Positions 3,001 to 37,000 of a DNA stretch of 64,000 nt are shown in pieces. A program made the translations under genes and the position numbers. Below the pieces are notes generated by a model that worked only from the letters and a program-made list of their open reading frames with translations, ran no database searches and was not told where the DNA came from. The stretch comes from Membranipora membranacea (Eukaryota; Bryozoa; Gymnolaemata; Cheilostomatida; Membraniporidae), in assembly GCA_914767715.1 (NCBI GenBank), contig OU612065.1:8122001-8186000 (forward strand), read 5' to 3'. The first letter of the stretch is position 1, and each line of letters opens with the position of its first letter.

Positions 3001-6000
3001 AGCATACCTGTAAGTGCAGCGTTTCAGAATACTTCGAAATAGTCTAAAAATAATAAATCATGAATCATAGTGGATAGTGACCGCACCACATGTGGATGCC
3101 GTGTGCGTGACATGACTGCTACTGGCGTCTAATCTCCATGGATCTGCTGGTGTGACAAAATATAAACCACCACCCAAGTTTAGAGTAAATGTGTCTGTCA
3201 TCACATCTGTCTGACACAGATCCTCCTTCTTAATCCAAGAGAGGGAGGGTGAGGATAGTAGTTAAATGTACAAACTCTTGAGTAACTCCAGGATGGCCGA
3301 TGTTACACTAGTACCCTTAGTATTATCGCTTAGGTCATCATTTATTTTATATGTAAATCTGATACAGCATTTGTTTGGCTTCCTCTTGGAAACGAGACAC
3401 TTTATAATACCACTGAACTTTGGATGGTCTCCTATAATTCAGCAGCTATTGTGTAATTATTTACAAAAACTATGAGCGTAACACTTTGTTTCATCCTTGT
3501 CAGTTTCACCCATGTCTCATGCTCATTATTTAGTAAATGGTAGCAGTTCCAGGCTTCAATAGCCATCAGCGTGTCTCTATTGATGGATGCTCTATTGCTA
3601 TGGCTTCCTCAATCACCTTGTTTTTTATATTAATTGTACCCTCTGATGATGTATATAATCATGTTTGTAGATGGCAGACCTGTGGATTTCTCCAGACATA
3701 TGGTAGCTGGTGGGATGGAGGAGGCCCCTCAGATCTCAGCACAGCGGTACAGAGAGCCCCCTGGTGGTGACCTTTCTGATGAAGAGCTTCTGGTTGATGT
3801 GGATGATGACAACGATGATGTATTCTCAGAACAGCAGCATGTCACTAATGAAATTAGGAATAGTAAACACATACTATCCCACCAACCACTACCTTCATCG
3901 GTGAAGAAAGGAGAACCCAGCACTGTCAAGAAAGTATGTTTGTTTTGATCAAAACATGGGACCCAGTTTCTTGAAATATTGTTTGGTATTCTTTGGATCA
4001 ACTGTCATATATCATATATAAATTTGTATGAATATAACATTACGATTGTTTCAGGAGAAGTCTTTGCAGCCTCGAAGGCCGATGAATGCCTTCTTGATAT
4101 TTTCTAAACGTCACCGGACCCTTGTGCATCAAAGGCATCCCAATCAGGACAACAGAACTGTTAGTAAGATTTTGGGAGAGTGGTGGTATGCAATGGATTC
4201 CGAAGCCAAATCGAAATACTATGAGCTGGCGAAGCAGGTAGGACAAATGTTTCGTAAATTTAACCCTAAAATTAACCAGACTACTTCACACACTACTTGA
4301 AGTGATCAAATTCAATTTAGTTTAAAAATGTGATATTGGTAGAAGGCTAATTGTTTGGTATGATATGAAGTGTAAGTGAAGTATATTGAATGTGATGAAT
4401 AGCTGGTTTTACTTGTCAGAGGTTATAACATTCTGCGGAATGGGTAACACCCCGCCCTCCCACGGTGTCAGATAAGCATCGATTGTAAAAAGCCGTGCTG
4501 ATCAGTGACATTTTTCCCTTTCACAACCAATCGAATTTCCCTTCCATTGATAACATCTCTTGCATTGAATAGCCATATAATATTCCTTTTGTCTTGTTAT
4601 TATGTTGTACTAAAGATGTTGAATTAACGTAATTACACCCTAACCAGGGTAATCGATAAATTTTTTATGTAATACTATAATCACTTCATTATAATGTGTT
4701 GCATAATTGAGGAATTCTTTTTGACCAGAAAATGAAAGCGAATTCATTAAAAAATCAGCATTGATTTGGTGCATACTCAAAGGCACTGAGAGTAGATTGT
4801 GTGAATTCCTTGGGTTGTCTCCTATTGTGAAGGTTTAACGTTGTACACAGTGTAGTGAGTTTTTTTTAATAAGCATTACAAGAGTTTACTAAGCCAATGA
4901 TTTATTGATTACACCCATATTTGCGGGGCTTCACCCATAAAATACATGGTGACAAATTTTCCAAAAATACATCAAAGAATTATTTTTTATTTTATGCTCG
5001 ATCAACAAAAGCTCAATTTTTTACTCAGTTAGGAAGGGGCTGGGTCTTAAAATTGGCAGGCTGCTGTCCGTGACCAAGTTATTTTAATTTTGATAACACT
5101 TCCAGTCCATCTGAGTTTTCGCTGAAAATGGTTTTAATCACTGTTGTCCAGTAATATGGGTATATTTTGTAATGGTTGTTGAGAGAGGTGAGGATGTGAT
5201 ATATGCCCAACTACGTCTCTTTAGTCTGAAATGATAGAGTTATATGTTACCTACATACTCTTCTATCGTTTATTTAGGTCAAGGATGCTCACTTCAAGGC
5301 GTATCCGGACTGGAAATGGTCAAACAAAGAGAAGAGAAAAGAGAGTACATCCAGCATGGCTCCTAGGCTATCTACCACGTCTGAAGACGGGGAGGATGAG
5401 GACGCCCATGCAGCGCTCTTCGACGGTAAATATATGAATCACAGGCTGTCGGGTCACATGGTGCTGAATGATGTGTCGATTTCTGGCGGGTGATCCTTTA
5501 AACCACCAGACACTGGTCGTAACTAGCGGCGGGATAATATGACCACAAAGCTACTATGTGCATTTTATTCCACGAAGATGAGCCCATTTTAAATTTGCCG
5601 CAAAGAGTGCAATTATCTCATGCGAACCTTTAGTTCTCAACAAGGGCGTACATGCACTAATTGCAGAACACTTCTAAGGGAATTATATATAGCATATCTT
5701 CGTTTTTAAAACTATTTTATAGACAAAAAAAGACAAATTAAAATTGAATTTATTTTCAATGTAATAGGTGTCTGACGTCCCAATCTCGTCTGACCGCCCC
5801 TGCTCATACTTGAGACAAGGTTGCGGTCTGGTCAGACTTATCAACCCATTGGGCTGCTAAGGGTCTGTACTGAATACCACCTTTAAGATTGAGATTCACA
5901 ACCCATACAGTAGTCTACCTGCTACACGTGACTCGTAGCCTTTGCTGTTTCAGATAGCATAAGTTTTTTGGCCGTGGCATGTCCGCCATTGGTATCTATG

Positions 6001-19000: not shown

Positions 19001-22000
19001 TCCGTATTTATTGCGGACTAACGACAGCAGAGACTGGGCATGTTCATGGGCATACTCATCGACCTCGGACTTAATACAGTGGACTGCTGTAAAACCTCTA
19101 CTCTGACTGCTTGCTACAAATAAATACAGAGTATTGTCATAATTATGAAATTCCTACATGTACATTATGTCTTAATTGTTGAATTTGTGCATTTTATGTA
19201 ATTATCATCCAAATGACATACTCAATGTAGAAAATGGAATTGTGGTCATGGTGTGTACCTATATCTGGGTTAACTGATGACAGAATGTCAGGAGCGCCCA
19301 GGCTAGACTTAGCCCCAGCTCCATCATGCTCTCCCTCTGCAGCTATGAGGGCTTTACTGGCATCCCACTGTTGAATTTCATCTTGAAGCTTCTGATTGTC
19401 ATCCAGAACATAGGCTTGCAAGTCATCTGGTAATCTGCCTAGTGCTTCTTCCTTACTGGGAAAGTCATGGCCTACAGAAACAACATTGGAACCTAATGAA
19501 ATTGTGCACAAAATAACAGTTTCCAAATCAATGTCAACCGCCTAGCAATTTTCCAGTTGGGTTCTTGTTTTACGGGTAATTTTTAGTCCCAGCTAGGGTG
19601 CAGTGATATAACCCATGTATCGGCTCTCTGAGCAGTGAATGCAGACACCCAAATAAAGAACCTGCTGTAAAAGATTTTGACAGTAAAGATAACTAGATTT
19701 TTAATGAATTGCCTCTGCTAGGTAACCTGAGCTTATTCGAATAATGAAATAATATACCAACAGAAAGATGCTAAATTAAATAAAACAATGCTCCTTTTTC
19801 TTTAGGGCCACCTTATAAAATCGAGTGATAATGACCACCCACAGCGCCATAATTACTGATTACGAAATTTGAATGACAGCAATGGCATCCGATATCACGA
19901 TCAATTCACATAGGACACATTTCATCATTTTTAAACACTTGCGATAGCGGGCCTGATTTAATTAAATCTTCTAAATTCCAAGCACAGTGCCAGGGTCAAA
20001 AGACTACAAAAAGAAAGAATACATTTTAATTCAAACAATTAGCAGACATAAGAACTATGCTTCACATGTGGCTGGGCTTACACAACCCTATTGTCATCAC
20101 ATTGTTTTTTAATTATATCCATTCTTTTTCTGGCAAAGCTACGCACCCATCACTATGAAATTGTCGCTGAAATGCTTTGATCACATAAAAGAATGTAATC
20201 TTTAAAACCTACATGGCCAACCTCTGACATTTGCACATCCTGCGGGGCCCAAAGTCATCATTCATTGAAAGATCAGAGATGTTCCTTTGATGATGCGGGG
20301 TTAAGGAGCCCTAAAACCTAGCGCCTCTTTAGGCAATTAATGAGCGCATCCGAATCAAATTAGTGCAGGTCTGAATTAACTCACAAGCTAATATAGAGCC
20401 GTTACTCAGTGCAGACAATGGCATAACGCATGTAATATATTAATACAGATTTTTGTCTCACGAGCTAATAAAATGATATCACCAGAAAACTTTGCATCTT
20501 GTACTTTTTCAATCTTAAAACAAAGGGACGAGGAAGCTACATTTAATGCGGTTACGGATTGTCTATGTAACAGATGGAATGACACAAGAAATTATAACCA
20601 GATCCCAGGAGCCGCAGAACAGCCAGCGTGGACTAAAATAACTACAAAACCTGATATAATATGCACCTTACATGCTACCCCAAATTTCTAAGTTTCTAGG
20701 TGTAGTTTAAAACACAGGACAGGACCCTCAATGAAATTGAATTAATTTTATATCAATGTACTTTAGAATTTTTTACCTGTTTTTAATAATTTAATTAGGT
20801 CACAGGGTTAGAGATAAACTCAGAAGTAATTTAGCTGATAGACTTCAAAAAGTTAGAATTATTTCCGTCGTCAACTTTCACCTTTAATGAAGAGCTACTT
20901 TCTGAAGCGGAGTCTTATAAGATGATGCAACATCATCATGGCAGCATTTGACATGAATTGATTTCTTACCAGTGAGAAGTACAGCACCTTCGCGAGGTTT
21001 TTCTTGATTATCAGTAGACTGTGTGTATATAAGACAGTAAGCACTGGCCGTTCCGTAACCTCCCTCGCTCTCTTTCACAACTTCCTGCCACGAAGCCTCA
21101 GTCACGCTGATATCGTTAAACTTAAGCCATGTGTTAGCCTCACGATTGTACACATAGGACCAATAGTGACCGGATACAGCCTCACCTTCATGTACCATCA
21201 CAGCGTGCAGGCAATATTTGTGCTAAAAAAGAAAATTTCACCAGTGGCTTCTTATCCAGCAGACAGCCTCCTCCTTTGTAAATTTTTGACACAAGCAATA
21301 TCAAAATATAAAACAAAAATATATATCACTACGGGTTATGACTCAGTGTGTCTACATTTGTCTTGTATGCACGGGGTATTACCAGCTTCAGATGTTCTTG
21401 CTCGTATGTTTTACTGACATCATCCTTGAGGCCACATATACATTTCTCATACTCCTCTATACTACTCATAACCTCCTGTTTCCAGCGATTCAAACATGTA
21501 GTGAGAACCTGCATCTCTTCCTCGCTTACATGCAGTGGTCGAGGTTCAGCCGCACTTGTGCTAGGAAATTTCGGATTACTAAAATACAGAGATTCAGGTT
21601 CAGAATGTTGTTCTACCAAAGGTGACATTCACACGGGACGAATTTGTTATTTATTTCTTTGTCTTTACATAGCATCAAGCAATATCACTATTGCTTTGTG
21701 TTTGGAAAGAAAGGAATTAAATTCAAGATTCCCCAGCACAGCACTGTAATCGAGACAGCTTTTAGAGTTGCATTGATCAGTAACGAGGTGAATATATGTA
21801 TAGTACAGTATTAGATCTATGAGAATACCTGGAGGATGAATGAGCCATAGATTGTGGGGAGGATTGAGAGAGTGCACATGGTTGAGGTATACTGTTATTA
21901 GACATCGCAAACTGTAATGAGTAATCTAATATATCTGATAATGGGAACTGTCTATCTCCTCTACCGTAATGAGTATATCTATAAATAAATAAACGCTATA

Positions 22001-25000
22001 TCAGTATATAAATATACATGTATTAGGTCACTGGTTCAAATTCTGGGTTAGAGATTTTGTTCGCGTAACATATACAGTTAACGTCACATTGTTGACACCT
22101 GACAGAACTATCAGCGCATCCTATGACATTGGATCGGATAGAGTGCATAAGAAGATTAACCCCATTATTTGACTATAGCAGCCTCGGGACTGGGTTTTGT
22201 TGCCAGACCTTTAAAATTCCTAAAATCGGCTGCTAACCACCTGACTGTTGTCTGAACATGTCTAGAAATAGATCCTTTTCTTTCATGATAATTCTTTTCT
22301 TCTCAGACCAATTAAAATAATCAGCAACGTAAGAACTCCCATCAGTGATGATCATAGTTACAATACATAGAAATATAATTACCAATCACTTTTTCTTAGC
22401 TGCTGGTGCTTTATTGTTTGATTAGAGCTAAATAGCCTTACATAATCAAAACATGATTTTTGGCTGCAGCTTTAGAATGGACCGGATCTTTTCATATTGT
22501 ATCCATACATTGCTACGCAAAAGTGTACCAGCTTCAAGTGCATTTCACATGATCAGAAATCAACCTGGTCAGCAGGACGGAATGCTCGGGCCAAAAAGGA
22601 TGGAAAACAGGAAGTAACAATCGATTTCTATATCATAGAAATTCATCATGTTTATTAAAGGGTCCAAAATAGAGAGTATTTATTGATTGAGCAGACCAGT
22701 ACATTGAATTTTGCTAATGTAGCTATGAGGAGACAGTGGTGGAAACTTACTTGTGCAAATCAGTTTCAAGTTTTGATAGTTCCATGCGCAGTCGAGTCAG
22801 TTTGTCTCTTTTTGCTCGCACTTCATCTTTATTTTGCTCTACATATCTGCAACAATTAGTTCATAGAAATTTAACCACACCATTTTTGAGCAATGATTAT
22901 GAGATGCACAGCACGGGACAGTTGTAAATATCATTCCTGCATTAAAAAAAATGCTAGCAATAAGCACAATGGAAATGTAAAATTGAATCATCAAAAGCTA
23001 CAGGGTACTGGCACTGAAGTTGACTTTTACCTGTCTAGATAAAGTGTCTGAGGGAAGGAGAACTTGTTGTGTAATTTTTCAGCCTGTGACTGCATAGTAT
23101 TATAACTGAACCGGGATAGTTCAAAGGTTAATAATGGAGGCAGGTGTGAAAACCATTGCTAAAAAAGACAAAATACAGAAATAAAAACATCAACTATGAT
23201 CTAAAAATGCAAAAAAGGTTCAATCTCACATTTTGATCAGACAGAGAAGGGTACGGAGTGGTTGTTGAAACACCAATATTGTGCCAACTAGAAGCTTATC
23301 AACATTGTTACTATGACAGTAATAGGTGGCCTACACAGGCACAATATGATATGTCAGTCATAGCCTCACTTCTTGATTTGACGTCTGGTCTGTATTGTTT
23401 GTTTCTATATCACCTTGTGCCAACCCGGCCTCTAAACTTTGGTGTATGTCTGAGAATCCAGCTACATACAGAGGCCATTGACCAAAGTGAGTATGTGTGG
23501 TGAATGTCTCTCCTATAAAATAAAGGTAGAAGGAAATAAAATATGTTAGTTCATTTATTTGGCGAAGGCTTGAACAGAAAATATCATAGACTTAATATAC
23601 TTAGTCTAGGGAAAATACTAACAACATTGTGGAATTATGTGAATTTGAGTGTGGTTCTATGAATTGGTTTACCTGCATTGGTTCCGTAAGTACGGACTTT
23701 GCCATAGAAGAGTTTGACCATTGAATTGTTATCATCTTTTTCTTTGGGAGGGGGATCAACATCCCTATAAAAATAGAAATCTTATAATATTCAGTATCAT
23801 AGCATCACTTGCTGCTTGAGGGGCCCAAAAAAATACTGAACGTAAAGAATTATGAATTGCATGACTTGATGCTGTTGGCAGTATGCCAAGCATACCAGCA
23901 TGTGGCCCAATGTTAATACTAGAGCCCTAAAGCTCAAGCTGCTGAGTGAAACGAATGTATGACATTATCATCCGACAGGGCCTTCAAAGGCGCAACGTAA
24001 TCAATCACAACATATTGATACATTCCTTCTAGGTGGTTCTCTCATATTTGGGCTGATTGGAGGGAGAGGTTGAATTGAGGTAAGAGTTCAGATGAGTATT
24101 GTTTAGCAGATTGATAGCAGCAAAGCTTGATAGAAAAAAAGGCCAGTAATCAGACAGGGGTGGACAATGATTAACGCCTCTTATACTACAGACAACACTG
24201 TGTCTGTATGCGAGATCGCGTATATTTGCCCAAACAGCCATACACAATGCTAATAATACAACATGTATGCACTTATACCAAACTAGCGAGACTAGAATAA
24301 CCCTTAGTAATCCCTTTGGAGAAAACAGTTAAATATAATATAAATACTTCGTTTGAATCTGCTGTAGACAGACAGACATTTGAGGATAGGCGATGTGAAA
24401 AAGGAAACAGATGTAATTGTACAAATTAGCTAGAATTAAGAAGTATCCTAGTATGTTTACATTAAGGAGGAACTTGGGTGGGGTGTGGAACATACATGGG
24501 CGTATCCTCATCTCTGCTGGTGGAATCCTGACTTTGAGATTGCTGTGACATCATTTCTGCTTCGGGTGTTTCGTTTTGAACAGCATGGTGAGCTCTGTGT
24601 TGAAACGCCTCTTCAAGCCAGTCTAATAACTTGTGTTGAAACTCGCTCACATCCTTACGAAAGATAATGCAGAATTATTTCAAGCAAGGAAGGCATTCAT
24701 TGGTTATTGATGATCTTTAAAACTGAAAACCACTCTGCGTTGACCATTTTTAAGTGAGTAAATTGGTAATGACATATTTACAGAAAAGATATGAGAGTTC
24801 CTCATCCTTACCTGCTGACCATTAGAGGAGTGAGCTGTCTGACCAGCTTCTCCTGAGCTGAATGAATGCTTCAGAACTTCAATAGCGGTGGATGGGTTCA
24901 GGTACTTTCTGTCAGAGGCCAACATCAGAGCAAACAATCGCTTCAACTCCACCATAAAAACTGCGATCTGATTCTCCTACCAATTATAGATATTAGATAG

Positions 25001-28000
25001 TTTCATACAGAAAGCATCAATGACTAGGGAACTCATCATGGGTCACATCTCGTGCTGAGGGTAACAGGCAAAAGTATTACATAGCTCTGCAACAATTAAC
25101 TGTTCGATACATATTATAATATATATGGCTATGTATAATGTGAAGGCATGTGTAAGATATGTTCTTGTTATATATTTTAGCATTCTCTGAAAATTGGGGC
25201 CACATGGACCACATACCTTGTTTAGTTCTTCAGACGGCTCATAATTCAGCACCAGCTCTCGAAACGTCTCTATATGAAACAACGACTGAAAACAAAAGAG
25301 GAAAGGGTTACAGTAAGGAGTTAGAGACTCCGTGGTTACAGCAAATTGAAAATCTGTACATATCATAATTTAGTCAAATGATCACCACATGCCGATCTGG
25401 ATTTTCGGGAGTCTGTGTGGGATGGAAGAAATGGTTCTCGCCGTACAGTAGAATTAAATACTACCTACATCCCAGATCGCATTATAATTCATGATGAAGA
25501 AAACTGATTGTCTTCTGGCCATGTGGGTTGCCTATCAGCATCAAGTCAATAAAACATCAATAGCACATTACAGAATCTTCGCCTACCGGTCAATATGTTC
25601 ATTTTGAATCAATTAAATTTTAATTCAGAGCATATGGGAGAGTCTGAGTATATTGACATCATCTGTTTGACAGCCTTTTCTCATCCAAATTGGTCAATAT
25701 CGCCCACCAAATATACTTCCTGATGAATGATACACTTTTATGTGATTGCCATATCAGTGAACTGAAAAGAATTAGTCCTACATTCTCCCATAAAACTATT
25801 ATGGCCAAATCCCCACACATCGATTATATTGAAGAATTTAGTTTTAAATTTATATCTTGTCAGTTTTGATCAGCTGATTGAAATTTTAATTTTGTTACAC
25901 TTTATAGATCTAGTAGCAGGTACCAGTAGGGTACCGGTTTGAGCTGTGATATCACAGACATACTGGCATATTATTGAAAACAAACTTTCTATTATATAAC
26001 AGAGTTTTTCATGATTCTTTTTGGGCATAGCTTGGTTCATTTAACTTGTGTGAACCATTTTTCCACTTGTTGGACTGCTAATTACTATCAATAAACACAA
26101 TAGATACCTGATAGGGAGGTTACATGATCATCTTAATAATGAACAGCTGGTTCTCATTTGGTAGCCTAGGTAGATATTTAATTCAAGGAGAAAAAGTGTA
26201 GAAACAGTGGTGGATATATAACATGAAAAGGGGGTGAAAACTGGTGGGCTACTGGCCGTAAAAAGAAGGCGGTGCCCAGAAACCAAGAAAGCAATTTCAG
26301 CCATGGCCACGCAGACAAAGCAGAAGATTATTTTAATTTAATTTAGTCAGTTTTGACTAAAGGCCGAAGTTCATAGAGACAAGCTGATCATAGACATACA
26401 GCTAACCCCTAGATCAAGTCAACACTGGGGCCCTAGGTCAAGGTTCGCACATCATTTCGGGAATTATTAGTATAAAAAGGCAGTGCACGCTGTAATAAGG
26501 CATGTTCTCCTGCGCCTTGTGAGCAAGCGGACCTGCAGATTAAAGAGCTGACTTCAACTGGATTATTTGTCTAAAGTTATCCAAGGTACAGAGAAACATC
26601 AGGTCAGGATATGAGGCTTTTTATATCAGCGCTTCTAGCGCTTAATGTAGCATTGACCTACAGTAAGCCAAGCAACAGTGTCAAGGTCGAGAGCTCTGCA
26701 GATTCTCAAGTGGTGAGTTATTTCAATAATCTACAAAAATATTTTCTGCCCATTTCAATCCATAAATTTCTCAGGTCATCAATATGCAGCAACAGAAAAT
26801 AGTGGCAATAAATGGATAATACGATGAAATGACTGGCTTATTCTATGATATTTCTTCCAAATTGAGTCTAACTTTTTAAGTCAAAATTGATCATTCTATA
26901 ATCTGTTAATTCTTTATAGGCTGTTGCTGGCGAGAACAAGAAAGGAGATGGGGATTCAATGTTTTACGGTTTCCTGAATGGTGGGTACAAATAACAACTT
27001 TGCAAAATATATATTGAGGACATGTGTGTGGTTCTCCTTAGAGTTTTTGAATATGTGAGATCTATGTTATTCGACATAATTTCAACCTTTCTGATATTAC
27101 CATTCACTCTTCGAGATCAAAATAAGGTTCATACAACCAGGAAGGATATGGCAATAATTCAGCTGTTTGCTTTCGGTATCACACTTTAAATAAGCTTACT
27201 GAATAACTTTTTAATTAAGATGCTGCTATGATCAAGTTATGCGTCGAAGGAAGTGATTGCTCATTTGCCACAGTTGGAGAAGCCAAAGCTCTAGATTACT
27301 CATCAATTGCTTCACTGTCTGCTGTGAAAGCTGAACCCAGTCCTCTGTCCAAGGCTCTCACACCATCCATGGCTACCATGTCTGAGTCAATCAGATCTCT
27401 GCAGGCACAGAAACTGGTAAGTATGGCAAGTCTTTCCATCACAGGAAATCAACAAGTAAATGATACCAATATGGTATGTTACAAAATTTACAAAAATATC
27501 CGCCTCGTGAGGTATTTTGAGCATAATATTTTCATGACTTTATTTTTGATTTCATGACAACTTGGTTCTCTGGGCTTACTTTAATCTGTATATAATTTAT
27601 TTGGCATTTCATTTGATGTACATTTTTGTGTGGGATATTGTGAGCACATCTCATTCTTTTTGTCTAATATTTCAGTTGCTTGAGAGTTTGGAGGCACAGA
27701 TGGCAGCTTTGACCTCAGCATCAGCCAAGGGACAGCAACTGTCAGAGAGTGCCAAGGGACAATTTGCCGAGGCTGTCACCAAGGGTGTACAGTTCTCTCC
27801 TAACAACAAAGGACTCGCTGCAGCTCCATCACCACCCAAGGGAATGTTCGCAGCCCAAGCCCCATCCATGAACAAGGGCTTTGCCATGCCACCAAGCAAA
27901 GGAGGTAAGCCAATGCCACATTTTTTTCTATGGAAATTTTCAGCAACCATTAAAAAATTATAAACATGCAATCTTAAAGGGCAAGGCTCTGTCTATCAAG

Positions 28001-31000
28001 TTGACACCTCATTACATATAATTTCACAATTGCTCAATTTTTTAATTTCATAACCCGATGAGAAGGCACATCAGTTAGTATAATATCACGTTTTAGGAAG
28101 CTCTGCTAACACTATGCAGTATGAAGCCATGATGTGCCCAATGACCATGTTCGAGCTTGGCAAATGTCAGAAGGTTGTTACTGAAGAGAAAATGATGTTG
28201 CAAGCTGCTGCTTCAAATAACGCCAGGATGGCTGCTGAGAAGCAGAGATTGGAGGGTGCCCTCCAGGTGAGTGCCATTTTGTGCTCATTTATGTTCATTT
28301 TTTTGGTGCAATACATCAATATAGAACGAGAAGTTTTGACAGCAGCATGTGAAGGCTGTTCATGTAATAGAGGTCAAAGATGCCCTGTTAAATTATATCA
28401 CCCAATTTTGTAGTTTTCTGAGGCTATGAAGACAAAGGCTGAGATGGAGCTCCAGCAGATGGCTAAACTGTATGCTGAGGAGAAGGCAAAGAATGCCATG
28501 CTTGTAAATGCCTTGACCGAGTGTGAGGAGGTGAAAGAGGTAGTAATCTCCCAGAGAGATGCCCTCGAGGTTGAGCTCAAGGAAACCCAGGAAGAACTGG
28601 TCAATGAGAAATCACTACGTGAGGCATGTGATGTAAATCTGGCTGGGTGCCAGGCCGTCAGCGCCGACCTCCAGATTCGGCTGGATGCTGCTGTTGCCAG
28701 AGGAGACAGAATCCAGGATGAATTGGATGCTACCAAACAGAGACTGCAGGAGGTTAGGTGTTCCTACAGGGTCAATAAATGGTTGAGCAATTTATTTATT
28801 ATGCATGTAAAAAGTGGAGTGTAGTGTGTTTGCTCATTTTTATCTTGCTCTAAAAGTAAAATGATCAGTGGATGAGTTCTTATAGCATGGTGTGATTCAA
28901 TTAGCATGGTTTGCCTCCCTCATAGGAGATCGAACGAGCCATCACTTGTGAGGAGAACTTAGGTTTCTGTAACCAGAGACTGGCCAAGAGCGAGGAAGAC
29001 CTCGCAAATGAGAGAGCCGAGAAAGAACAATGCGAGAGCACATTGATGGCTACCATGAACCAACTTGCTGCATGTCAGCGTGAGAGCAAGGTGCTGTCTG
29101 AGAGGCTTTCAGTTGCCGAGGATGAACTCCAGGCTAAGGCTGCGGAATTAGCCAGAGAGCAAGCTTACAAGGAAGCTGCTGAAGCTAAGGTTGCTCAACT
29201 CACACAGGTAAAATCCCTGATATATCTTTGTAGGGTGTGGATTTGTTCTGCCTGCTAAAGCTTGTGTTTTGTGTGTCGTGGTAGGCTTGATTTTCGTAGA
29301 ATAAAGTAATGATTAAAACTATCTGACACCATTATTTACACCAATGATATTAACTTTTGTCCACAGGAGCTGAGAGACACTGAGGAACAACTCAGACAGT
29401 GCAATACTGACCTGAACATCGAACGAAACAATGTCGCTACCTGCAACAGAAAACTGGGTGAGGCCGAGGCAGAAGTAGAGGCATGTAACAATAGAGTGAA
29501 GGACCTGCGTGATGCGATCGAGTCACTCAGCCAAGAGCTTGATGAGACTAAGACTCAATTGAACGGCTGCAACGCTGAGAAAGATCAGGTAAACACAAAG
29601 ACTTAATAATAATTAAAATTGTTAAGACTTAATCGTTTATTATTAAGTCTATGGGTAAACATAAATACAATATCCCAGGGCACTAGATCCCATGCAAGGG
29701 GCAGGACTTCTGAATTAGGAAGCCTGACATTTCTCTTTTGTTTAATGATGATTTTGATGTTAGAAGAGATTGTTCTGATCCGATGATTTCATCTTGTTTC
29801 ATTTCAATTCCAGCTTAGAGAACTGCTTGCTGAGACATCTGCTGAGCTTGAGAATATGACCATTGCCAAGGAGCAATGTGATGTTGAGCGAGCTGAGTGC
29901 AATGTTGCTGCCAAGGAATTGAGTGAGCAGCTGGCCACTTGCATTGTGATGGTTGAGGCTGAAAAGAAGGCTAGAGAGGAGCTGACAGCTACCATCCAAA
30001 TTGTACAGCAGACATCCATGAAGGTTCAGGAAGAGGTAAAGAAGCTGCAGCTGGAGAATCTGGCGCTAGCCCAACAAGTACAGAAACTACAATCTGAACA
30101 AGGTAAAATATGCATTATTAATTCCATTATGATATGAGGGATGAACTTTAAGTAGGGTATGGCTTTGGGTAGTTAGCCCAGCATTCAGCAGACAACTGTT
30201 TGAGACCCCTGGTCCAAATGTCATCGCAATCTGCAGGCAAATGAGCATTTATGCTACAGGTTAGTAACCGAGAGAATCGTGCAGACTTGGGATTAAAGGA
30301 AACCTCAGTTCTACAGAGTGGGGTGTAATAAGATTTTGCTTATTCTTGTCTTATTTTTACAAATGAAACCATAATATCTGTAATTGGCATATTGCAGAGG
30401 TTGCACTGGCTCTTGCTGCTGGATGCCCACCAACTTATGAGAAATTCGGAAGCAGCTGTTACAAATATGTCAGAGAGAAGACCCCATGGAAGATGGCTCA
30501 GGAGCAGTGTATGAAGGATCAGGGTAACTTGGTAGCTGTGGAGGATGCCCAGGAGCAGATGTATCTTGTCGACTACCTGAAGAGAATGGGTAAGATTATA
30601 GTTATATGATTCAGTATGCACAGTGTGTCTCAATCCTGGTGTTTGCAGTGTTGCTTGACTTGGAGAGTTGTAGAAGCCTGTCCAAATATGCAGCAGCTGG
30701 TGAGATTTTCTGGTAAATCTGAAATAGTAATTCCGTTTGGAGGGGAGATGTTTATGATAGCATGATATTTTTTGCATGAGGGCTTGAGAGATTGTTGCAT
30801 GATGAGTGATATCCATAGAACGTGTTTGTGTTATATCCCAGATGCTTCCGATGATCCATATGCATTCACCAGTGGCCACAAGAAGTACAATGGCTGGAAG
30901 TGGCTTGGAACCTCAGATACTCATGTCAATGGAGCTTACTGGTACAATGCTGCCACTTCCATGAAGCCTGGTTATGACTGCATGTCCATGTATTTGGCTG

Positions 31001-34000
31001 ACTCCATGAACTTCGGAAAATGGATTGGATTACCATGCTACAACGCTGCTCCATATGTTTGCGAATACAAGTTGGTACCTGATGGCACTGTCATGCCTGC
31101 CAACCCCGCCGAAACCTTGGCTCTCCAAGGAATGGCTGCCGAGGCACCTCTTTATCTGAGAGCCGGCTCTTCAAGCAAGGGAGTTGGATTCAGAAGATCA
31201 TAACTCCATTTAGAAACTTTTGACACGGACAATTCCAGTCAACAGTGGATACAATTAATGATAATATACCCTTTTTGGACTCATAATAAGCTTTAGAGTC
31301 TCATGATTACCACAATAAAATAATTTCTGTCTCTCTAAGCTGACAACGCTCACAACCCCCAGTATCAACCCACTTAAAACTCTCTTCTCTGTTTGAGTAT
31401 AAATTGCAAGCCACGCATATAATATCTGGGCAATCCTCCTCATATCGGTGCTATTTTAAAATATACGCAAGTTTGTCTGACATTCTCAATACATGTAAAA
31501 TTAAATATTATGTGACATTTGTTGATTTTTGTAATAAAAAGGTGACCTAGTTCAGGGAAAAAATTTTGTCTTGTATGTGCGAAGTTCCGTGGCATCATTC
31601 GTTAACCAATCAAATGATCTTTGTTTCGCATGTGTGTGACAGCATAGTTTAACACAATATTTTGTGCAGTGTGAAATCCTATCTTTTCGGGTCAACCCAT
31701 TGGCGCATACTGCATATGTGTTTGCGTGAGAAGATGTATATTATTTTATATAAGCTGAGTCGCAAAAGTTGTTTGAGGTGCCAATGAGTGCAAGCTGTTG
31801 AACAAATTTGCACTGCAAAATTTACATTACACATGTTTGTCTGCACATTCAAATATCATTCTTTCTTTAGATTTTCAAAAATGGCTACATAAACTCGAAA
31901 ACATGTCATAGAGTTTTGAAAATTGTCCGGATTTATCTCACATTCCCTCCACCCTAGTCTTTAGTGTACTAACTTTGTGTTGCAATCAATAAATAAAAAT
32001 ATGTAATTAAGATAGGTCAGCCAATCTAAAGATAGTCCCTCCTTGTTTGCAAATGATCCTGAGAAATTTGGTTTTAACTTCTTTCTGATTAGAAAGACCA
32101 GGCTGTGCAGATATTTTCCAATGAAAGCTATGTGCATTCTACATAACTAACAATTCGTTAAGTACACATTCACATCTGGAGCCTCTTCAAAGCAATTTTC
32201 CAAACAAATAATTACTGATCATGCTCAAACCACCCAACTTGATTAAACTTGATGCTTTGTGTGCGGATTTCAATTTTTGTTCAATGATTTGAGACATGTC
32301 TAAAAATGGTCAGTCCCTTTTGGTTTTCCTAGTCTCATTCTGTTATCGAATGAATCTATGTCAATCAATGTATGCTTTTAGATGCAAGGTATGATGATAA
32401 GTACATACACATTGGAGCTTATGATTACAATGCAGAAGGTGCTTTCAAGTGGGTCGGCACACAAACACCTCTATTCATGACACCAGCTCATTGGCTGCCA
32501 GGAAACCCGAGACATGGTGGCCGACGATGTCTGGCTCTGCAAACTTGGGATTGGGAGAAGTTTGGAAAATGGGCGGACGCTTTCTGCTGGGTTAATCTTC
32601 CTTTTGTGTGTGAAGTTATGATGCAACCGGCATTTATGCAATAACATGATCACAGTGAAACATAACATGTTTTGTAAACTTTTTGTGCTAAGAATGGTAA
32701 CAAAGTTTCACATGTCATGGAAAGCCTACATGCATCAATTCAATGCTCAAACCTACACTATGTTATAACCAGTTATTATTCGAGCAACATTAGAAAATTG
32801 TTGATATTGAAACTATTTTTTTATGAATCTCTTGACATTCTGCTGGGGCCCCATTATTTTTCCTGTTTCTTTGTTATTTCTACCTCCTTAATGTTATGCA
32901 TACCTCTCCTCAATTTCAGTGCACTGAATTTATCACACCAAAATTCTTCATCACCCTGTACATAATTTTCATAATAAAGCACCTGTTGGCAACATGTTCA
33001 AGTTAATTTCAGCTACTTAACTCAACACTTTTTGCATCATCAATAGTCCAGGGCAGACAAGGATGTTTTGTTTCATGCACTGTATGCACATTGCAGTATT
33101 CCAGATTAGACACAATGTTGCAGCTATTAGGATGTAAGAATAGTAATAAACTAGACTGGTTGCCAAAAAATGAACTACGATCTCACGCCAATTGTATCAC
33201 TTTATCTCACACATGTATTAATTTTGCAAACCCAACCTTTAATTGGAACGCTGAGAAAAAATTTATAATGCAAGTCATATAATTCTAGATTCACTTTCTA
33301 CCTATTTACCATTTGCTATTTTGATTGCTGTTTTTACATGTTTTCACAAAACTAGCAAACATTAATTGGCTGCACATTAGTGACCAGCTTTTTACACAAA
33401 ATCTGTCAATTACCCTGCTGTGAAGTGAAATGGGGCGGCAGCTGTGCATAGACTTGAAGTGAAAGTTACATAACCAATTACCTGGATGACTGCATTGAAC
33501 CAGCAGGTATTCCCAACATTTTTCAGACCAACCGGCCAGCTATTTTCTCGTCTCCTCTCATACGGGTTGGCATGATCGATATACCATACAGGATTCTTTT
33601 TATTGTCCACTTTGGAGTCTGCCAAGCTAGCTTCTAGCACTCTGTTAAACGATACATCAATCATGTTTGTGTTAAGTTTAAACTATATTCATAGCATTCC
33701 TAGAGCTGGCCAAATGTTGTAGTTGGAGTTGCTAGTACTTGTTTCAAAAAGCATCAAGTGCATACAACTCTAAATTTGATCATGACTACTTCTAAGAGAG
33801 AGCAGAAGGAGCCGCCATGGCACAAGGGGTAAGCCATGGGTCTTTTAATCGAGAGGTCCCATGCTCGATTCCCGGCGGGTCACGATGGTGTCAAGAAGAG
33901 CATCCGTTCTCAAATGCTCCTGTGCCCCATCAGGATCCAGTCCGTAGACCTGTACTGATACCGGAAAGAAAAAACAAACAACATCCAGGTTTCTCACAGG

Positions 34001-37000
34001 GTATCACAGGGCATCGCGACTATAGATGGACGTGAGATTTATTTCTAATAGAGAGCGGATTATGTACTCACCTGCTTATATCCTGGTCTTCTCTGGTGAT
34101 CTGACCACCTAACATTGCAGGCTGCACTCCTGGTGCTGCCTCAAGGCTAGCTGCTATGGCCTTCTGTATGTCATCATTATCACCATCACTTGTCAAATCA
34201 ACAATCTGCTTCGATGTGTCTATGAATTAACGAAAATGACACTCATATCTCATGCTCATACTCATGAAGACTTTTTTTTAAAAGCAAATTTTATTAGGAT
34301 TGTCCAATCATGCAGTATCCAAAGTGTATGATGACCGGGTAGTATTCTGATCCTAACAAATTGATTGATTATTGTTGGTATATGGTATATAAAGATGGGT
34401 AATAGACAGCTGGACGACCATGATTTTAAATCTATGTGCTATGGCTCAGCTTTTGATCATTCCGATAGACTCAATTTCAGGGAGCCTAACATGGAAACCT
34501 ACTGAAATCATGAGAAATGTCCTAATTTATATCACTTTCTTCCCACATTCTCATAAATACCATTAAAATATGGTCAGCTAAATCTCATCAATATCTCATT
34601 GTCAGAAAACTATTGCCACGTGTATACATATTTGGGGCCAATAACCTCAGACAGCATTATCATGAGCTTCATGAGGTGATGACGCCTGTAGCCTAGCTGC
34701 TGCCTATCAAATTATTGGAAACCAGGTTAGGGGGTCCTTCAATTTTAATGTGAAATTATTAAACATATTCGCCTTTCAGAGATACAATTATCTTTCTAAA
34801 TTTGTTATATACGACGCATCACAGTTACATCGTGAAGTATAAGAATGTCACCCTACAGGGTTCTTGAACACCAAGATCACAATTTTGCAAACATCAATAG
34901 ATAAACCAAGGCTTTTAATACATACTGTACTTACTAACCACAACAGTTTCATTTCCTACCTGTCTGTGTCTCCATGGAGTTTGATCTCTGGCGATTTTGA
35001 CCATCAGTTCCTTGCTGAACTAGATACTAAAAATATAAAACAAAACATAATTACCTTCAACACAAAAGGGTTATCAGCAAAATGAGGATAAAGTTTTTAG
35101 CATTCATAGCATTTCGAATTTATAGATAAGATGTCGCTTTCTGGCACTCCATTGAGACATACAGATTAGCTTACGTGATTCTCGTTAAAGTGTGAGGTCA
35201 CATCGTAGTTAATATCCTTTACTTTAGGTGTCTGGCACAAAGCAGATATCACTTCAGCTATTGTTGCTTCTTGGTTATTGCCTTTCCTTGAGCAATTATT
35301 CCATGCCTTTCTAATCCTGTTCACATCATCACATCCAGTTATTTCTTTTATTTGTTCAAAGGGTATGTCAGCTACAACCTGAAAGAAGAATCCGTTACAG
35401 AGTTAATGATACATCACCTACTATATTTTCGACCAAAGGGAAATTAAAGGGATCTAGTTCAAATAGTTTCGAGTCCCTTTTATATTGGGTTCCACTCATT
35501 ATTTGGCTCTATTGAGCTCAAAAACGTCCTCCACCTGCCTCAGCCTGCAGCATTGCATGTGTTTCACTGTCTACAGTTTCAAATGCGGCCTGTCCTGTCA
35601 CCAAACAATTTAATTTTGATCAGGAGGGGAGAGTTTGGGGACTGGAATGAACGTACACAGGACCGATTATCGACTGGTATGATGAAAGCCAAAAACATTG
35701 GAATGAACGGCGAAAGTCATTAAACGCATTGGTTCAAGTATGAATATATATAAAATCTGAAGTACGCATTAAGGAAGGAACATTAATCACATCAATTTTT
35801 CCATATCCTTCCCAAAAATCCAACCAACAACACTTTAGATGATAACATATTCTACAAATATCCTTGATTATTTATACACTAGCCTATTAGCGGCTCCAAA
35901 AAAAGCCCTATTGGGGCTGCTGAGATAAGCCTTTGCTATGATACCGTATAACTTTATCCATACTGACTCTCGTGATCTGACTGGGCATGTAGATCACTGA
36001 TAAACTAGGCTATCATTACCACAAAGTAGGCGTCGTAAGGCTAGGTATGCATCATGCGTGACTTGAATTTCCGCATGTGCAAGAACAATGAGTTTAGTTT
36101 GGGCTCTGATTGCAACTTTTGAAAGGGAAAATGGGATGTCCCCTGCCTAAACTGTCAATCAAAATCAGCTAATAATGACAAGAGAGGATAACTATTAATA
36201 ACAAATCCGCACGCTTTGGGGCGTATGTCATCAGAGCAGGTAGCCAATCAGATTGCTTCGGAATTCCGAGACTCAATTTTGCAGAGATCAGCTCATGCCC
36301 AGAGCTGAGCATGCGCAGAATGAACTTTATCGGCAATATAGAATTCATAATGATACCCTTGCCTTGTGCAGGATCCTTAACTTTTACTTGTCAAAGACAC
36401 CACATAATTGACGACTGGTGGTCGGTGCGCAGGAAAAATTATGTACTGTTGCAAGTACCATTGCCAAAAATACCTACACAAATGATAGTACATAACAATT
36501 AATTAATCCCACCGAAATCGATTGAGGTAAAAAATTTGCCTGCGTTGCTAGAATGTAAAAAAAACATGCCCACCATTTATTGCTGATATAATAATCCTTT
36601 ATAACAATGTTTCTGTTGCTTCATTCCAGTACCATTTCAGTGCTTGCACTACATTACTCTCTGACTCCATCTAGCCTTACTAGATTTTATAACCATTATC
36701 ATGAACAGATTTGAGTGCCTAATTTGCGAATGATCATCATTAGTTTGCTACCAGTTACACGATTATTATGTGGAGTTGAACTTGAACCATTTGTATTTAT
36801 AAAATGCATTTTGACTTTTGTTACAGCACTGTGTTCATTTCCAAGTTGGTTCCAGCATACATTCATTCCCGTCGATGTTCAGTCCAACCTATGTCATTCC
36901 AAATTCAAGCTTGCGTTTTAGCTGGCAAACCCATTGCCCTATTACTGGGAGGTACCAACCGAATTGATTTGGCGTTATGGTCCCGCCTTTCTTTAAATAA

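Follow-up and report, generated by a model that had tools for sequence, protein, structure and literature searches.

A cysteine ladder at a single heptad position in a putative secreted, lectin-headed coiled-coil rod of the bryozoan Membranipora membranacea

We analysed a window of 64,000 nucleotides from the genome of the bryozoan Membranipora membranacea (GenBank assembly GCA_914767715.1, contig OU612065.1, positions 8,122,001 to 8,186,000 of the forward strand); all coordinates below are positions within this window. An 11-exon gene is readable at 26611-31203 on the + strand, with ag/gt at all junctions, and its product of 814 amino acids contains a long rod in which all 15 cysteines (Cys) occupy one heptad position, d. 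We lean towards reading this product as a secreted, lectin-headed rod, in which a parallel, probably dimeric coiled coil is held by a ladder of interchain disulfides and may end in alternative lectin heads.

We set the limits of the rod at the ELGK(C/S) and GCPPT motifs, so that it runs from Cys220 up to the first cysteine of the lectin domain. Thus defined, it measures exactly 420 residues –60 heptads– and is free of proline. An earlier sequence-only reading of the same DNA had listed cysteines at 220, 290, 325, 332, 374, 381, 402, 416, 472, 486, 500, 528, 556, 563, and 577, separated by multiples of seven. Our spliced translation reproduced each of these positions to the residue, together with the multiple-of-seven spacing of every interval. 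The cysteines are spread over five + strand exons, placed by the spliced frame: Cys220 in exon 5, where the rod starts (28097..28266); Cys290, 325, and 332 in exon 6 (28414..28752); Cys374, 381, 402, and 416 in exon 7 (28926..29207); Cys472, 486, 500, and 528 in exon 8 (29367..29588); and Cys556, 563, and 577 in exon 9 (29814..30102). Exon 5 also encodes Cys210, which lies ten residues before Cys220, out of register, followed by a proline, and outside the rod as defined. At the other end, Cys640 –the first cysteine of the lectin domain– continues the heptad register. With a rise of about 0.148 nm per residue, the rod would be about 62 nm long, of which the ladder (residues 220 to 577) would take up about 53 nm.

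The sequence-only reading had assigned the cysteines to core position d, with leucine typically three residues earlier, and had described continuous heptads. Both points were borne out: leucine stands three residues before the cysteine at 8 of the 15 sites and fills position a in 27 of the 60 heptads, and continuity is supported by the 60-heptad rod and by the register kept in homologues. For scoring the register we used our own simple hydrophobicity table in sliding windows of 35 residues, with cysteine set as neutral. The best register was the one that places cysteine at d in 360/388 windows of the rod. The same scoring agreed with d in 351/388 windows of P0001, 387/388 of P0002, and 249/276 of P0003, the three homologues described below. 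Because the best hydrophobic register agrees even when cysteine is neutral, the register is independent of the cysteines themselves.

Such confinement is far from random expectation. The chance of 15 cysteines falling in one named register of a 420-residue rod is 4.0e-14 (seven times that for any register), and 1.1e-5 when cysteines are restricted to a and d positions. Among 200,000 shuffles, none reached 15/15 when free, and seven did so when limited to a and d. The next most confined residue among those tabulated was leucine, with 27/48 at a. Position d itself is shared by cysteine (15), leucine (14), glutamate (8), alanine (7), threonine (6), and others (10).

As the sequence-only reading had argued, the spacing does not come from exon duplication, since the lengths of exons 5 to 9 leave remainders of 2, 3, 9, 12, and 16 modulo 21 and so never correspond to complete heptads. 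Exon duplication was also tried as a candidate by comparing the rod with itself, and rejected: at heptad offsets, identity stayed at or below 17.9% vs. a mean of 12.9% (homologue rods reach 19.1-20.6%).

Homologues were sought in a space of 5.8 billion protein sequences. The candidates scored were 7,994 sharing most words, a set of 280, and a set of 1,443 under length limits that left out P0001 and P0002 and returned P0003 alone. Three homologues, 42-48% identical to the window protein, were recovered among them. Two of them, P0002 and P0003, are protein predictions from Watersipora subatra, another cheilostome bryozoan; they match the window protein over 95 and 93% of its length, respectively, and show the same domain order, the same rod register, and the second lectin half of type 11b (see below). 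We took them as paralogues because their contigs differ in length. P0001 is encoded on a contig of 2,713 bases. The database names of the Watersipora proteins –"adventurous-gliding motility protein Z-like isoform X2" for P0002 and "C-type lectin domain family 4 member F-like isoform X2" for P0003– were set aside, as they look like reflections of coiled-coil or lectin resemblance. So far, the family consists of the Watersipora subatra proteins, P0001, and the window protein; calling it bryozoan-only is provisional, as most bryozoans may be missing from the database searched.

Cysteines scattered over heptad positions in homologues, which the sequence-only reading had named as counter-evidence, were looked for in these three proteins and not found: all 15 of their rod cysteines are at d (P0001 4/4, P0002 8/8, P0003 3/3). 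Taking the four proteins together, 30 of 30 rod cysteines are at d, distributed over 18 alignment columns. Two columns hold cysteine in all four proteins (Cys332 and Cys556 of the window protein), and the column of Cys416 holds it in the three proteins that have that column. The 35 homologue cells in these 18 columns that are neither cysteine nor gap contain threonine (18), leucine (5), serine (3), alanine (3), and others (6).

The rod has 420 residues in the window protein, P0001, and P0002, and 308 residues (44 heptads) in P0003; none of the four contains proline. The rods of the window protein, P0001, and P0002 align without gaps over all exon joins. Given this alignment with two homologues, alternative joins that break the register –the other weak point that had been foreseen– are unlikely. 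A wrong-splice artefact was considered separately and rejected, given the open frame with the acceptor at 28414 and the gap-free rod alignment to P0001 and P0002. We also observed that, relative to the other three rods, that of P0003 lacks exactly 112 residues, or 16 heptads; as the difference is a whole number of heptads, even a large change in length kept the register. On the sequences compared, the rod register is conserved across the family and the number of cysteines is not. The whole-heptad rod lengths and the absence of proline suggest that the register is under constraint.

The structure that we propose would be built as follows. Two chains would form a coiled coil of 60 heptads and about 62 nm, most likely as a parallel pair of identical chains, with each core d cysteine facing its partner on the other chain. 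Facing cysteines would be oxidised in the secretory pathway, giving up to 15 interchain disulfides, and this ladder would fix both register and pairing and make the rod stiffer. At the C-terminal end of the rod would sit the lectin-like heads, held away from the N-terminus, and the use of exon 11a or 11b as last exon would alter the domain half in which other C-type lectins have their ligand site. The likely role would be extracellular, as a linker or tether within matrix, cuticle, or mucus. We infer interchain oxidation, the parallel dimer, the fibre nature, and secretion from the protein sequence; an oxidising compartment is argued for by the signal-peptide-like N-terminus and the six-cysteine lectin domain.

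AlphaFold2 models of P0002 and P0001 had a mean predicted local distance difference test (pLDDT) of 56.5 and 57.2, with a low-confidence lectin domain, and were used solely for two features, the long rod helix and a small N-terminal alpha/beta module. At this low overall confidence, most of the rod is a long helix in both models. Foldseek, run with the P0001 model against PDB, gave no match at E<=0.001 among 97 at E up to 10; its top row was a lectin domain at E 2.2, which is not meaningful.

Several observations weigh against a selected disulfide ladder. Nine of the 15 cysteine sites of the window protein are without cysteine in every one of the three homologues, which means that those relatives can do without most of the ladder. 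Position d is also rich in leucine, threonine, glutamate, and alanine in this rod family, so cysteine may perhaps be just a tolerated small core residue. With the cysteines masked, a different register scores best in 28/388 windows of the rod. Finally, both models show a break of the helix in mid-rod (P0002 401-404, P0001 410-419), at low confidence.

One alternative explanation is that d accepts small residues (threonine, alanine, cysteine) against leucine at a, so that cysteines drift in and out and any disulfides are incidental; surface cysteines would be excluded, as exposed free thiols do harm in the extracellular space. The replacements fit this in part: five of the nine sites with cysteine in the window protein only carry threonine in at least two homologues (the others read Leu/Leu/Leu, Ala/Ala/Ala, Gln/Gln/Glu, and Met/Val/Thr), and in all four rods d is the register where threonine is most frequent. 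However, threonine is also common off the core (17/37 at a or d in P0001), whereas the rod cysteines are never found there. Moreover, the codon table requires two base changes for each threonine-to-cysteine replacement, which makes five such sites in one lineage unlikely by drift alone if threonine was ancestral, and facing core cysteines in a parallel coil are expected to oxidise regardless. We regard this explanation as fairly unlikely.

The extra cysteines of the window lineage look like gains, because P0001, P0002, and P0003 all have threonine in columns 472, 486, and 500. We tentatively suggest, as an idea on which we are more doubtful than convinced, that the d layer might act as an evolutionary threonine/cysteine switch. 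Relatives would carry 3-8 staples and this lineage 15, none off d, and the outcome would be a covalently zipped fibre of 50-60 nm with tunable stiffness and exchangeable lectin halves.

The number of chains is a second point where readings diverge. Three or more chains could make up the rod, on the model of collectins and the other C-type lectins that form trimers; each cysteine layer could then hold one disulfide per three chains, and spare thiols or inter-rod cross-links might build a network. Trimeric necks are frequent among soluble C-type lectins, and leucine at a with a mixed d layer leaves the oligomer state unfixed. On the other side, polar or charged residues fill 18 of the 59 a positions, which is more typical of dimers, and an odd number of chains would leave an unpaired thiol at every cysteine layer. 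A trimeric or larger assembly is improbable in our judgement. The redox state of the ladder allows another reading, in which the cysteines escape oxidation and form stacked thiolate sites for soft metals such as copper. The geometry of the ladder is compatible with it, and designed coiled coils with cysteine cores bind metals; however, the protein is apparently secreted into an oxidising environment, and the dense ladder is absent from all three homologues. This metal-site reading seems to us very hard to believe.

From N- to C-terminus, the protein comprises a signal-peptide-like start, a small N-terminal module, a short stretch that is helical in the models of the homologues, a linker rich in lysine, glycine, and proline, the rod, and a C-type lectin-like domain. 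Exon 1 (26611..26712, + strand as all exons here) supplies the ATG and the signal-peptide-like segment, and is supported by a gt donor, an open frame, and hydropathy. Residues 3-17, with a mean hydropathy of 1.97, are the sole strongly hydrophobic segment (the best 19-mer after residue 25 reaches 0.94) and look like a signal peptide on hydropathy alone, in line with the signal peptide named in the sequence-only reading; the ALLAL core of this start is common to the three homologues. Exon 2 (26920..26980; ag/gt boundaries, alignment with homologues) and exon 3 (27220..27416; open frame, tblastn to homologues) encode the N-terminal module. Exon 3 is 50, 49, and 37% identical to P0001, P0002, and P0003 by tblastn, and its Cys62/Cys68 pair is kept in all four proteins. 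This small alpha/beta module (26920-27416; residues 41-90 in P0001), with its shared cysteine pair, had no Pfam match; its pLDDT blocks were 71-83 in the P0001 model and 50-74 in the corresponding part of P0002. Exon 4 (27676..27904), placed by homologue alignment, holds the short helical region and the linker.

The lectin-like domain is split between exons. Exon 10 (30398..30589), supported by homologue identity and Pfam, encodes the rod end and the first lectin half with Cys640, 651, and 668; over 63-67 residues it shares 79-83% identity with the three homologues. In agreement with the sequence-only reading, which had placed a C-type lectin domain at the end, the whole protein matched Pfam PF00059 (Lectin_C) with 45.6 bits vs. 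a cut-off of 22.6 (1.3e-11); the homologues reached 48.5-51.0 bits. No other Pfam family was above cut-off in the window protein, and four coiled-coil-like or lectin-like families stayed weakly below. The long-form lectin cysteines are present (640, 651, 668, 741, 760, and 768), and all six match cysteines in the three homologues; we infer their disulfide pairing.

Exon 10 can join, in the same phase, either of two exons for the second lectin half, each with its own stop. Version A, exon 11a (30842..31203), has an open frame and 45% identity to P0001 over 106 residues. Version B, exon 11b (32382..32644), is supported by an ag acceptor, phase, homologues, and Pfam: it is 62% identical to P0002 over 87 residues and 54% to P0003 over 83, and the open reading frame (ORF) that holds it matched Lectin_C at 8.1e-7. 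P0002 and P0003 carry the 11b type and P0001 the 11a type. In the stretch searched, AATAAA occurs at 31314, 31533, 31988, and 32973, and each of the two exons has one within about 350 bases downstream. Swapping 11a for 11b would change the second lectin half, and Membranipora may use both. Calcium-dependent sugar-binding C-type lectins have an EPN or QPD motif together with a WND motif. Read by eye, the translation of exon 11a showed neither EPN/QPD nor WND, and that of exon 11b has NPR and WAD at apparently equivalent places. Ordinary calcium-dependent sugar binding is doubtful, as neither version keeps the usual residues. The sequence-only reading, right about the rod cysteine pattern, had left the second lectin-half exon unmentioned; the far lower cysteine counts of the homologues were beyond its reach.

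At the genomic level, the rod gene appears to be nested, on the opposite strand, within a large intron of a gene for a ubiquitin-specific protease (20887-34226, - strand). The end of the UCH catalytic domain is clear at 20887-21222 (- strand; 50.0 bits vs. a cut-off of 23.9). Two further - strand ORFs fell below the Pfam cut-offs, a UIM-like one at 34071-34226 and one that covers positions 1 to 23 of the UCH catalytic profile at 33413-33682; both lie upstream of the 3' parts of the protease gene. Three more minus-strand ORFs, at 24.4-25.4 kb, presumably resemble USP25/28 and had no Pfam match, so the assignment to one particular intron is tentative. Elsewhere in the window, an HMG box (4022-4297, + strand, 56.3 bits) belongs to a gene that we take to resemble Capicua. 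No tRNA was found in the window and no Rfam match at the gathering threshold. The exon-7 stretch occurs once at the DNA level in the Membranipora assembly (339,339,785 bases, 18 contigs), which still allows for diverged paralogues.

Bryozoans are fouling animals, and to our knowledge little is known of their structural and adhesive proteins. The gene described here opens an unnamed bryozoan protein family. With 15 cysteines at one position and relatives that have 3, 4, and 8, it offers a natural series on how many staples are needed, on stiffness, and on the evolution of covalent rods.

A first comparison is within this family, where P0002 and P0003 have 8 and 3 rod cysteines vs. 15 in the window protein, and the P0003 rod is 16 heptads shorter. 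Beyond the family, the tetherin (BST-2) ectodomain forms a parallel coiled coil outside the cell, held by more than one interchain disulfide; it is shorter, has three cysteines, and is membrane-anchored at both ends. Of collectin features, we saw by eye no Gly-X-Y collagen-like region in the 814 residues, and no Pfam collagen match appeared up to E 0.01. In titles and abstract openings of the open-access literature, we recognised no work describing this family or a one-register cysteine ladder.

In the Watersipora genome note, the words "lectin" and "coiled" are absent (PMC12902671). Among C-type lectins, a neck cysteine links the mincle dimer by an interchain disulfide, and a natural serine-to-cysteine variant of BDCA-2 gives a disulfide-linked dimer (PMC11632378). 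These are sugar-binding membrane receptors with one neck cysteine, and what they share with the rod is a disulfide-stabilised C-type lectin dimer (PMC11632378). In the basic leucine zipper of CREB3, a d-position cysteine forms an interchain disulfide in a parallel dimer; CREB3 is a transcription factor with a single such zipper cysteine, and its likeness to the rod lies in the d-position cysteine (PMC6423718).

Finally, PLVAP, a vertebrate capillary diaphragm fibre thought to span tens of nanometres, dimerises in parallel, and its 89-residue CC1 carries five interchain disulfides (PMC10083539). The likeness would be one of mechanism, with which the d placement is compatible, and we do not claim kinship. 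The sequence-only reading had found no named family with such a ladder. This stands insofar as Pfam above its cut-offs names the lectin domain alone; however, the principle of several interchain disulfides along a parallel coiled coil outside the cell is already known from PLVAP (PMC10083539), and since it is solved there, the rod is not a new kind. The CC1 cysteines of PLVAP (142, 153, 178, 199, and 224) are spaced by 11, 25, 21, and 25 residues, with a heptad discontinuity in the structure, so that this solved multi-disulfide coil has no single shared heptad position, in contrast to the rod (PMC10083539). PLVAP is also a type II membrane protein, with no lectin domain described in the portion covered (PMC10083539). 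The bryozoan protein thus differs from it in having all of its rod cysteines, 15 sites, at one core position, in its lectin head and apparent secretion, and in belonging to a family that, besides the window protein, our searches found only in Watersipora subatra and as P0001.
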